Shown here in pieces: positions 6,723 to 50,114 of a DNA stretch of 64,000 nucleotides; position 1 is the first letter of the stretch; every line of letters starts with the position of its first letter. The notes under the pieces are model-generated. The model was not told the origin of the DNA. It saw only the letters and a program-made list of their open reading frames with translations, and did no database searches. The DNA is from Dysosmobacter sp. (GTDB lineage: Bacteria; Bacillota; Clostridia; Oscillospirales; Oscillospiraceae): assembly GCA_026169195.1 (NCBI GenBank), contig JAPFEH010000046.1, positions 1 through 64,000 on the forward strand, given 5' to 3'. The position numbers and the translations under genes are program-made.

Positions 6723-6751
6723 TTGTAATATGGGGAACCTTTTTGTATAAT
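6723..6751 (+). promoter_or_regulatory. Putative promoter TTGTAA-N17-TATAAT for the uracil permease leader
   Basis: Consensus -10, 17-nt spacing. Confidence 0.65.
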
Positions 6752-6782
6752 GGGGAAAAAGAACGAGAGGGAGGAAACCGGC

Positions 6783-6836
6783 ATGATGAATCTGGCAGCG
6801 TTGACGGCGTCCTCTTTTTCTATTTCTTTTCTTTGA
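6783..6836 (+). CDS. Putative 17-aa leader peptide MMNLAALTASSFSISFL (attenuation)
   Basis: GGGAGG Shine-Dalgarno 8 nt upstream of ATG; U-rich 3' half; stop codon abuts the terminator stem. Confidence 0.6.
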   Translation: MMNLAALTASSFSISFL

Positions 6837-6863
6837 CCGGCTGTCAGTGCCGGTATTTTTTTT
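6836..6863 (+). terminator. Attenuator-type terminator in the uracil permease leader
   Basis: ACCGGC-TGTCAGT-GCCGGT followed by A and T8. Confidence 0.75.
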
Positions 6864-6899
6864 GCCCGTGTGCGGCTAAGATATGAGAGGAGAACTGAT

Positions 6900-8270
6900 A
6901 TGAACGAGAAAAAGGCCCCTATTGGACAGCAGCCCATTCGGGATGCACGGAGTCTTGGCGTGCCCAAAATGTTGATCTTGGGTTTGCAGCATATGTTTGC
7001 CATGTTTGGCGCCACCGTGCTGGTTCCGATTCTGGTGCAGAGCTATGGTCTGCCCCTTAACATTCAGACCACCCTGTTTTTTGCCGGCTTCGGTACGCTG
7101 TTTTTCCATATCTGCACCAAAATGAAGGTGCCTGCGTTCCTTGGCTCATCCTTCGCGTTTCTGGGCGGCTTTTCTGCGATGGCTGCCATGGATCAGGGAA
7201 TCTATGCCGCGATGGAACCGGCGGAAAAATTGCAGTACGCCTGCGGCGGCATGGTGGTGGCCGGCCTTTTGTATGTGCTGCTGGCGGCTGTAATCAAGGC
7301 AGTGGGCGTCCATAAGGTGATGCATTATCTGCCCCCTGTGGTCACCGGACCCATCATCATTTTGATCGGTTTGAATCTGGCGCCTTCCGCTGTCAGCAAT
7401 GCGTCTACCTGCTGGTGGCTGGCTTTGACAGCAATGGGAATCATCATTGTCTGCAACATCTGGGGCAAGGGAATGATTAAGATCATTCCGATTTTGCTGG
7501 GTGTTGTAGGGTCTTATCTGGTGGCTGTGGCAGCCAATCTGATGGGAGCCGGTCTGATCAGCTTCACGGAGGTAAAGGATGCCGCATGGCTGGGCTTCCA
7601 GCCCTTTGTAACGAATTTCGGCGGCAGCATCGCCAAGTTTGATATTTCCGCGATCTTGGTGATGGCGCCCATTGCGATTGCTTCTATGATGGAGCATATT
7701 GGCGATATGTCGGCGATCTCCGCCACGGTGGGCGAGAACTTCATCGAAGAGCCCGGCCTGCACCGTACGCTGGTGGGCGACGGTGTTGCCACAGCGCTGT
7801 CCGCGCTCTTCGGAGGTCCGGCGAATACTACTTACGGAGAGAATACCGGTGTGCTGGCACTGTCTCGCGTCCATGATCCCCGGGTGATCCGGCTGGCAGC
7901 CATTTATGCGGTCATCCTGTCCTTCAGTCCGAAATTCGCCGCCTTTGTCAATTCCATTCCCGCGGCCATCATCGGCGGCGTCAGCTTTATCCTCTATGGT
8001 ATGATCTCTGCCATCGGTGTGCGGAATGTGGTGGAGAATCAGGTGGACTTCACCAACAGCCGTAATCTCATCATTGCCGCTGTTATTCTGGTGTGTGGTC
8101 TGGGCTTTACCAACGGACTTACCTTCCAGATCGGCGAGGTATCTGTCACGCTGACATCTCTGGCGATTGCTGCCATAGCGGGTATTGTCCTCAATGCCAT
8201 TCTGCCCGGCAATGATTTCCACTTCGGCAAGAGTGCCGACGATGCCTCCGGCTCCTTGGGTCGTTATTGA
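6900..8270 (+). CDS. uraA: NCS2-family uracil/xanthine permease (uracil permease-like)
   Basis: QHMFAMFGATVLVP N-terminus; TTYGENTGVLALSRVHDPRVI NCS2 signature. Confidence 0.9.
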   Translation: MNEKKAPIGQQPIRDARSLGVPKMLILGLQHMFAMFGATVLVPILVQSYGLPLNIQTTLFFAGFGTLFFHICTKMKVPAFLGSSFAFLGGFSAMAAMDQGIYAAMEPAEKLQYACGGMVVAGLLYVLLAAVIKAVGVHKVMHYLPPVVTGPIIILIGLNLAPSAVSNASTCWWLALTAMGIIIVCNIWGKGMIKIIPILLGVVGSYLVAVAANLMGAGLISFTEVKDAAWLGFQPFVTNFGGSIAKFDISAILVMAPIAIASMMEHIGDMSAISATVGENFIEEPGLHRTLVGDGVATALSALFGGPANTTYGENTGVLALSRVHDPRVIRLAAIYAVILSFSPKFAAFVNSIPAAIIGGVSFILYGMISAIGVRNVVENQVDFTNSRNLIIAAVILVCGLGFTNGLTFQIGEVSVTLTSLAIAAIAGIVLNAILPGNDFHFGKSADDASGSLGRY

Positions 8271-8414: not shown

Positions 8415-8646
8415 TTAGCATGATAGAGGCGCAAATGCCATGAGTCGTCCTCCCTTCAAGGACAGGCACTGGGGTGGATAAAAGGGACATTTGCCGAGGT
8501 TTCATGAGCCAGCTTGTGGGCTGTGGAGCCGGGCCGTGGGAGAAGATCCCCCGGACTGTCGTCTGAAAGGGCGGAGCGCTGTCGTGGTTCCATACGTAGT
8601 GTGTAGCGTATGAAGTCATGACTTCTGTCATGACTTCATTTTTTAT
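8415..8646 (+). promoter_or_regulatory. Lysine riboswitch (L box) with terminator
   Basis: GATAGAGGCGC ... GGTGGATAAAAGGGACATTTGCCGAGG ... ACTGTC ... GGAGCGCTGTC; then TGAAGTCATGA/TCATGACTTCA hairpin plus T-run. Confidence 0.88.
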
Positions 8647-8660
8647 AAGGAGAGAGAACC

Positions 8661-10394
8661 ATGAAACATCTGAAGCGGCATCTGCTGCCGCTGATGGCGC
8701 TGCTGCTGGTGCTGTGCAGCGTCATGACCGTTACGGCATTTGCCGAGGACCCCACGGAAGAGAACGGCACCAAGATGATCGAATGCCCGGAATGTGGAAC
8801 CATGGGCGTTGTTTTGACAGATGAAGGAACGGCAGCTCCATGCGAAAGCTGCGGCGGCAGCGGCTATATGGAGTCTCCCAGCCGGTTCTTTAATACCGCA
8901 TGGTCCCTGCTTCCCCCGGTAATTGCCATTTTATTGGCATTATTGACCAAGGAAGTGTACAGTTCGCTGTTTATCGGAATTCTGGTGGGCGGTCTGCTGT
9001 ATTCCAATTTCGCCTTTGAAGAAACCATTCTTCATGTCTTTCCGGACGGCATTGTGGCATCCGTCACGGATAGCTACAATATGGGAATCCTGATTTTCCT
9101 CGTGATTCTGGGCGCTATGGTGTGCCTGATGAACAAGGCCGGCGGTTCTGCGGCGTTTGGCCGCTGGGCAAAGACCCACATCAAATCCCGGGTGGGAGCG
9201 CAGCTGGCCTCCATTCTGCTGGGCTGCCTGATTTTCATTGACGACTATTTCAACTGCCTGACGGTGGGCAGCGTGATGCGCCCGATCACCGATAAACACA
9301 ACATCTCCCGCGTCAAGCTCGCCTATATCATTGACGCGACTGCTGCGCCGATCTGCATCATTGCCCCCATCAGCTCATGGGCGGCTGCCGTGGCAGGCTT
9401 TGCTGAGGATGGACAGGGCTTCAATCTGTTCCTGCGGGCGATCCCCTATAACTACTATGCCTTGCTGACGATTGTGATGATGGTCGGTCTGGTGGTTATG
9501 AAAATGGATTATGGGATGATGCGTACCTTTGAGTCCAACGCCATCGAAAACGGCGACCTGTTTTCGGGTCCGAACCCCTATGCCACCGCTGAAGAAAATG
9601 TAGTGGAGGACAAGGGACGGGTGCTGGATCTGGTCCTGCCTGTGGCGGTATTGATCGTCTGCTGCGTGACCGGAATGCTCTACTCCGGCGGGTTCTTCTC
9701 CGGTGAGGGATTCATCACTGCGTTCTCCAATTCTGACGCATCTGTGGGTCTGATGCTCGGTTCCGCCTTTGCGCTGGTGTTTACACTGGTGTATTTCCTG
9801 CTTCGCCGCTCCATGACCTTCAAGGAGATGATGGGCTGCATTCCCGAAGGCTTCAAGGCCATGGTTCCTGCCATCATGATCCTGACATTTGCATGGAGCC
9901 TGAAGGCGATGACCGATTCTCTGGGCGCCAAGTATTTCGTTCGGGACTTTGTGCGGACCTCCGCCACCGGCGTACAGATGCTGCTGCCGGTCATTGTGTT
10001 TGTGATTGGCTGCCTGCTGGCCTTTGCGACCGGCACCTCTTGGGGAACCTTCGGCATTCTGATTCCCATTGTGCAGAATGTGTTTTCCATGGATGATCCC
10101 ATGGCGATCATCTGCATTTCCGCCTGCATGGCGGGTGCGGTCTGCGGCGACCACTGCTCTCCCATTTCCGATACCACCATCATGGCCTCTGCCGGTGCAC
10201 AGTGCGACCATGTGAACCATGTGTCCACGCAATTGCCATACGCCATTACCTGCGCGGCAGTGGCTGGCATCACCTATTTGATCGCCGGCGCTCTGGTGCA
10301 TTTCGGCGCACCCGGCATTCTGGGCCTGCCCATTGGCATTGTGCTGATGCTGGGAACCTTGCTGGTCATCAAGCGTACCGGAAAAGGCGCATAA
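8661..10394 (+). CDS. NhaC-family antiporter, probable lysine transporter, with signal peptide and Cys-rich N-terminal domain
   Basis: NhaC-type TM core (SSWAAAVAGF, SWGTFGILIPI, CGDHCSPISDTTIMAS); N-terminal ECPECG...CESCGGSG; lysine riboswitch upstream. Confidence 0.85.
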   Translation: MKHLKRHLLPLMALLLVLCSVMTVTAFAEDPTEENGTKMIECPECGTMGVVLTDEGTAAPCESCGGSGYMESPSRFFNTAWSLLPPVIAILLALLTKEVYSSLFIGILVGGLLYSNFAFEETILHVFPDGIVASVTDSYNMGILIFLVILGAMVCLMNKAGGSAAFGRWAKTHIKSRVGAQLASILLGCLIFIDDYFNCLTVGSVMRPITDKHNISRVKLAYIIDATAAPICIIAPISSWAAAVAGFAEDGQGFNLFLRAIPYNYYALLTIVMMVGLVVMKMDYGMMRTFESNAIENGDLFSGPNPYATAEENVVEDKGRVLDLVLPVAVLIVCCVTGMLYSGGFFSGEGFITAFSNSDASVGLMLGSAFALVFTLVYFLLRRSMTFKEMMGCIPEGFKAMVPAIMILTFAWSLKAMTDSLGAKYFVRDFVRTSATGVQMLLPVIVFVIGCLLAFATGTSWGTFGILIPIVQNVFSMDDPMAIICISACMAGAVCGDHCSPISDTTIMASAGAQCDHVNHVSTQLPYAITCAAVAGITYLIAGALVHFGAPGILGLPIGIVLMLGTLLVIKRTGKGA

Positions 10395-49764: not shown

Positions 49765-49995
49765 AAAAGCCGGTAGAGGCACGCTCCCACCGACAGTTAC
49801 ACACACTGGTGTTCCAGTGTGAACTTTCTGTAAGCAGATAGCGCCCCCGCGGTTGCCCGCAGACAGTCCCATGGGTATTTCCCATGACCCCACCATTCTC
49901 CTGCGCCCAGAAGAACAGTTCGGCGGATTTGCCATTCCCGCGTTCTCAGCCTGCCGGCTCCCGAGGGTCCATCGCATCCGCGCCTCTATCTCGTT
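49765..49995 (-). promoter_or_regulatory. Lysine riboswitch plus terminator upstream of dapA
   Basis: Minus strand GAGATAGAGGCGC ... GGCTGAGAACGCGGG...CGCCGAAC ... ACTGTC-TGCGG-GCAA-CCGCGG-GGGCGCTATCT; downstream hairpin plus CTTTTTCTTTT. Confidence 0.8.
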
Positions 49996-50114
49996 TTTGT
50001 TATCATACCATGGCGGCTTTTCGGATGCAATAGAAATTTTTCCAAAAAACTACCGCTTTCAGACGCAATGTGTTATAGTATGTGGCATCTTTCCCTGTTC
50101 AGGAGGCAATGCTT

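Follow-up and report, generated by a model that had tools for sequence, protein, structure and literature searches.

A candidate pyrBI-like leader-peptide attenuator upstream of a likely uracil permease gene in Dysosmobacter and related Oscillospiraceae

PyrR is the usual attribution for pyrimidine control in Firmicutes. Reiterative-transcription control, as at E. coli upp-uraA and at pyrG of Gram-positives, employs a homopolymer run at the transcription start. In the pyrBI operon of E. coli, abundant UTP leads to fast transit of the leader by RNA polymerase (RNAP) and to termination, and scarce UTP leads to RNAP pausing on the U-rich template, where a coupled ribosome prevents formation of the terminator hairpin (PMC10135430). 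Leader-peptide attenuation was called undemonstrated outside Proteobacteria and Actinobacteria in 2010, one special case aside (PMC2965389), and has since become known for antibiotic resistance genes of B. subtilis (PMC12288461, PMC9226507). The tlrB and vmlR leaders of B. subtilis and the predicted bacillar hisS leaders share leader-ORF-dependent transcription attenuation in Firmicutes with the leader described here (PMC12288461, PMC9226507, PMC2965389), but they sense antibiotics or histidine and lack a U-tract timer ahead of a pyrimidine gene. No earlier description of a pyrimidine leader-peptide attenuator in Firmicutes was found in the literature searched, outside which the key reviews lie.

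The window is a 64,000-nucleotide stretch of Dysosmobacter sp. contig JAPFEH010000046.1 (C88) from an assembly of 2.37 Mb that is 96% complete. Public records name its close relatives as Oscillibacter and other Oscillospiraceae. The initial annotation had listed a promoter, a Shine-Dalgarno sequence (SD), a 17-codon ORF, a U-rich tract, a stop codon adjoining a terminator and a uracil permease-like NCS2 ORF, and reading and scanning of the sequence confirmed all of them. The permease is closest to UraA by sequence. The nearest solved structures are uracil permeases (PDB 8omz, E 8.6e-60), and the protein scores over the cut-off of the NCS2 superfamily model (NCBIfam TIGR00801). Its top specific model is NF007995 (uracil permease), where its score lies under the cut-off, so by sequence uracil is the likely substrate, short of proof. 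The window also holds two lysine riboswitches (Rfam RF00168), at 8416-8589 (+, 82 bits), upstream of an antiporter-like membrane protein ORF (8661-10394), and at 49831-49996 (−, 77.7 bits).

Features of the leader and permease gene in the window. The transcription start is an inferred position.
Feature	Position	Strand	Evidence and detail
Sigma-70-type promoter TTGTAA-N17-TATAAT	6723..6751	+	TTGTAA 6723-6728, TATAAT 6746-6751; scan 10/12 matches
P1 5' strand, inferred transcript 5' end via SD to just before the start codon	6758..6781	+	Duplex prediction, swap test
Leader SD GGGAGG	6769..6774	+	Sequence reading
Leader ORF, 17 codons MMNLAALTASSFSISFL plus TGA (6834-6836)	6783..6836	+	Sequence reading, frame test
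P1 3' strand (anti-SD), inside C-terminal codons of the leader ORF	6804..6830	+	Duplex prediction, swap test
U/Y-rich tract TCCTCTTTTTCTATTTCTTTTCTT, proposed RNAP timer	6810..6833	+	Sequence reading, wobble test
Intrinsic terminator ACCGGC-N7-GCCGGT (6836-6854), A, T8 (6856-6863)	6836..6863	+	Sequence reading, scan
NCS2 nucleobase:cation symporter, UraA-like uracil permease, 456 aa	6900..8270	+	ATG 6900; PDB, NCBIfam

The window leader and the pyrL leader of pyrBI have in common a promoter, an SD, a leader ORF, a U-rich tract just 5' of an intrinsic terminator, a T8 run and a downstream pyrimidine gene. E. coli pyrL has 44 codons and crosses its terminator, whereas the 17-codon window leader stops on the stem. 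The A of its TGA is base 1 of the 6-bp GC-rich terminator stem, and its final eight codons are almost wholly pyrimidine. The pyrBI target is biosynthesis; the target here is a permease, in Firmicutes, and its UTP response is predicted. The feature shared with E. coli rph-pyrE is a reading frame that ends near a terminator before a pyrimidine gene, but that frame is a full gene and the one in the window is a dedicated short leader. We did not detect a homopolymer run at the inferred transcription start, where the sequence is AAAGAACG or similar and varies among relatives. A second copy of ACCGGC lies at 6777-6782. The copy noted in the initial annotation is real, but the alternative pairing with GCCGGT proposed for it was rejected, as the window leader and L010 carry the motif but most relatives lack it.

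Over 100 permease loci were gathered from relatives and GTDB contigs; many of these genomes are metagenome-assembled, and orthologs share ancestry. An SD-ATG ORF and a terminator precede the orthologous permease at 23/23 same-genus loci. The first in-frame stop fell within −3 to +14 nt of the stem in 30 of the 36 automatically called leaders, compared to 7.6 expected on shuffling; the related sequences are not independent, though their lengths and stems differ. The stop is at −1/+2 of the stem, or inside it, in most leaders. Meanwhile, the scored leader peptides (14-31 codons) are nearly wholly divergent. The promoter keeps its position in relatives (TTGCAA/TTGTAA-like and TATAAT), and the ACCGGC/GCCGGT stem is conserved within the genus. 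Distant Oscillospiraceae (Pseudoflavonifractor, Lawsonibacter) have different terminator stems with equal spacing and the stop still on the stem. The device is missing before most Lachnospiraceae orthologs. Two leaders (L018 and L041) have no stop at the stem; their ORFs cross the terminator and overlap the start of the permease gene by an ATGA, which recalls the way E. coli pyrL extends across its attenuator. Of the 168 terminator-like sites in 529 kb (~22% of the window genome), only the window leader is an SD-ATG short ORF ending on a stem. Scanning 400 kb of a second same-genus genome (102 terminators) gave the ortholog's leader as the sole Y-rich case. These sequence comparisons place the layout beyond chance and make a leader/terminator attenuator a well supported reading.

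The codons of the tract were compared with those of the permease genes at the same loci. Over the nine C-terminal codons of 30 leaders, wobble pyrimidines are T:C 179:62 (74% T), compared to 2036:6555 (24% T) in the permease genes. The excess of wobble T is present in 30/30 leaders (paired Wilcoxon p 1.9e-9). The Phe codons alone are TTT:TTC 51:9 in leaders and 201:543 in permease genes. Phe is absent from that nine-codon stretch in three leaders, and no series of codons for a single amino acid is conserved in all leaders. The selection of U at wobble positions and the Phe-less leaders indicate that the tract is conserved as nucleotides and argue against an attenuator that reads Phe or Ser codons. 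By this comparison, the tract is kept U-rich as RNA or DNA rather than for its peptide. The stretch from P1 to the stop codon, outside the helix, is 49% T. The tract is short and weakly U-rich in four close same-genus relatives (L017-L020).

Folds of single leaders show that nearly all of them pair the inferred 5' end and the SD with the U-tract in a long helix, P1, which is a newly recognized element here. P1 is 11-26 bp long (mean 18) and takes in the SD core in 30/33 leaders; 1-26 nt separate its end from the stop codon. Its 3' strand starts at a median of ATG+32 (IQR 24-36), and its sequence varies by leader, for example AAATAA:TTATTT, GATAG:CTATTT, GACCA:TGGTTT and AATCATGGGA:TCTCATGATT. 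L017-L020 have a near-perfect P1 (AATCRTGGGAGGA and its complement) and are perhaps a variant where pairing outweighs U content. A purine-rich SD can pair with any pyrimidine tract, and a partner-swap test between leaders was therefore chosen. The native mean was −19.5 kcal/mol compared to −15.9 kcal/mol for swapped partners (z −7.3, 0/20,000 permutations), and the 16 non-redundant leaders gave z −5.3 (0/20,000 permutations). The swap-test controls, which were the permease SD, DNA upstream of the start and the early ORF, were null. On this result we discarded a permease SD:U-tract pairing that single-sequence minimum free energy folding had suggested. With the test limited to the 12 nt at the transcript's 5' end, the full set was significant (29/20,000) and the non-redundant set was not. 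RNAalifold on sequence-only alignments returned purine:pyrimidine helices of ambiguous register, with two-sided changes no higher than in slid controls. Register-specific covariation found no confirmation in these alignments, and the case for P1 is therefore built on the swap test together with the individual folds. Since the leader 5' end and SD pair with it in P1, the U-tract is predicted to double as an anti-SD, and pairing with the purine-rich SD accounts for part of its U-richness. In the predicted fold of E. coli K-12 pyrL (L192:12390-12620, minus strand), the SD CGGGAGGA is complementary to the U-tract UCUUCCCG over 8 bp, compared to the mean of 18 bp here. Similar complementarity is seen in the Klebsiella, Proteus and Aeromonas leaders, and the enteric pyrBI swap test covers four species only.

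The 37 same-genus genomes contain neither a PyrR protein over cut-off (0/37) nor a PyrR RNA (0/37), compared to 11 and 7, respectively, of 23 other families of the order. The phosphoribosyltransferases of the window genome are Hpt, Upp, Xpt, an Apt-like protein, PyrE, Prs, PurF and ComF. PyrR lies directly upstream of the permease in four genomes of sister families (G039, G050, G054 and G055). In sister families the PyrR-dependent pyr attenuator (Rfam RF00515) controls an ortholog or paralog of the permease; unlike those systems, the window leader is without PyrR protein, PyrR RNA and anti-antiterminator. The permease leader in a genome from another family of the order (L169, G045) has a different attenuator-like stem pair, CAAGATT... 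and CTTGCCGGAGTCCGGCAAG-T7, which gives no match to the PyrR RNA model, and G045 has no PyrR protein over cut-off. The de novo operon pyrC-K-D-F-E-B-I of the window genome (L151:1863-7631, G000:C78) has a short plain leader with no recognizable attenuator, and it encodes the PyrI regulatory subunit. This plain leader and the single instance among the 168 terminators in 529 kb indicate that, within the sequence scanned, the device is confined to uptake. The initial annotation had proposed a pyrBI-like attenuator with no PyrR binding loop. The leader ORF, the U-tract and the stop on the terminator recur in relatives, the U enrichment acts on nucleotides rather than amino acids, and both PyrR RNA and PyrR protein are absent from genome and genus. 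Those parts of the proposal stand, but it overlooked the coevolving P1.

The reading we consider probable is a pyrBI-type translation-coupled transcription attenuator that governs a uracil importer, in which RNAP transit of the U-tract times ribosome loading. Comparison of the sequences establishes, at that level, the ORF, the selection for U, the stop-on-stem geometry, the terminator, P1 and the lack of PyrR. When pyrimidines are replete, the default, RNAP would pass the U-tract fast and the nascent tract would fold onto the 5' end and SD as P1. Closed P1 would block ribosome loading, the terminator would form and the permease would be OFF. When UTP is low, RNAP would be slowed in the U-tract, and a ribosome would load ahead of P1 closure and translate the leader. 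That ribosome, at the stop on the stem base while RNAP makes the T-run, would block the hairpin and turn the permease ON. We infer UTP as the signal, blocking by the ribosome, the timing, the direction of the response and coupling. An initiating ribosome has a footprint that reaches about ATG+15, and RNAP encloses about 14 nt of RNA. The ribosome site would first be fully free with RNAP near ATG+29, the U-tract entrance. Because the site would be exposed there and the emerging tract would shut the SD, the dwell of RNAP on the tract would be the loading window of the ribosome. A more tentative proposal, which we rate a little under an even chance, is that one U-rich segment is both the RNAP brake at scarce UTP and the anti-SD, so that the device may register if ribosome loading beats RNAP to the end of the tract. 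This device may have replaced PyrR in this branch of Clostridia, and like SD:U-tract pairing has perhaps been overlooked in E. coli pyrBI.

Several observations count against the coupled model. The U-tract is weak in L017-L020, the stem stop is missing from L018 and L041, and the pyr operon has its plain leader. Transcription is reported to outrun translation in B. subtilis (PMC7858274), which is a further point against coupling. Stop-to-terminator distances (n = 29 per genome, with no B. subtilis yardstick) have a median of 11 nt in the window genome and 17 nt in E. coli, a small-sample difference that is weighed neither for nor against coupling.

An unlikely though serious alternative keeps the leader, terminator and P1 as described and replaces the signal, with P1 controlling ribosome loading according to translation initiation capacity, ppGpp, temperature or an RNA-binding factor, and the tract being U-rich mainly to pair with the SD. 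P1 is the strongest coevolving feature, 40% of its pairs with a 5'-strand G opposite a pyrimidine are G-U, and L017-L020 retain P1 despite a less U-rich tract, all of which suit such a signal. The selection of U over C, even though C is the better partner for G, runs counter to it, as do the U-richness that continues beyond P1 and the target, a uracil permease in genomes that lack PyrR. P1 may instead be an RNAP-pausing hairpin of the NusA/NusG type, as in trp and his leaders and B. subtilis tlrB, with pausing that is independent of UTP. The end of P1 1-26 nt ahead of the stop fits this idea, as does the precedent of tlrB, where NusG-dependent pausing buys time for leader-peptide translation (PMC12288461). 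We consider it improbable, since the NusG pause motif TTNTTT occurs 18 times in the tracts compared to 15.8 in shuffles and was dropped for lack of excess. The NusG of the window genome (L190, G000:C71:21260-21754) has N-V as its motif-reading pair, between the N-T of the B. subtilis type and the S-V of E. coli, and the replacement of T by V also speaks against a pause hairpin.

Amino-acid attenuation, with the leader sensing charged tRNA-Phe or tRNA-Ser, would account for Phe and Ser being the most frequent tract residues. It is highly improbable and was rejected on the wobble test: codon identity varies while wobble U is selected, and three leaders have no Phe at the end of the ORF. In addition, the downstream gene is unrelated to amino acids, and no conserved alternative antiterminator pairing with the terminator was found. 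Short ORFs and terminators are each common alone, and the leader could on that ground be no more than an unrelated short ORF with its own ordinary terminator, or a chance arrangement, with no regulation. This is scarcely credible and was refuted by the constraints on frame, spacing, U and P1, which hold in dozens of genomes, and by the uniqueness of the arrangement in the 929 kb scanned.

P1 gives the proposed pyrBI-type attenuator a concrete, mutable hypothesis for how the leader chooses between ribosome loading and termination, and this hypothesis extends to E. coli pyrBI. If the model is true, PyrR has been superseded by a regulator-free device in these bacteria. B. subtilis is the standard example of uncoupled 'runaway' transcription. 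The attenuator would be workable only with a ribosome that keeps pace with RNAP, and the model, if true, would therefore mean functional transcription-translation coupling in gut Clostridia.
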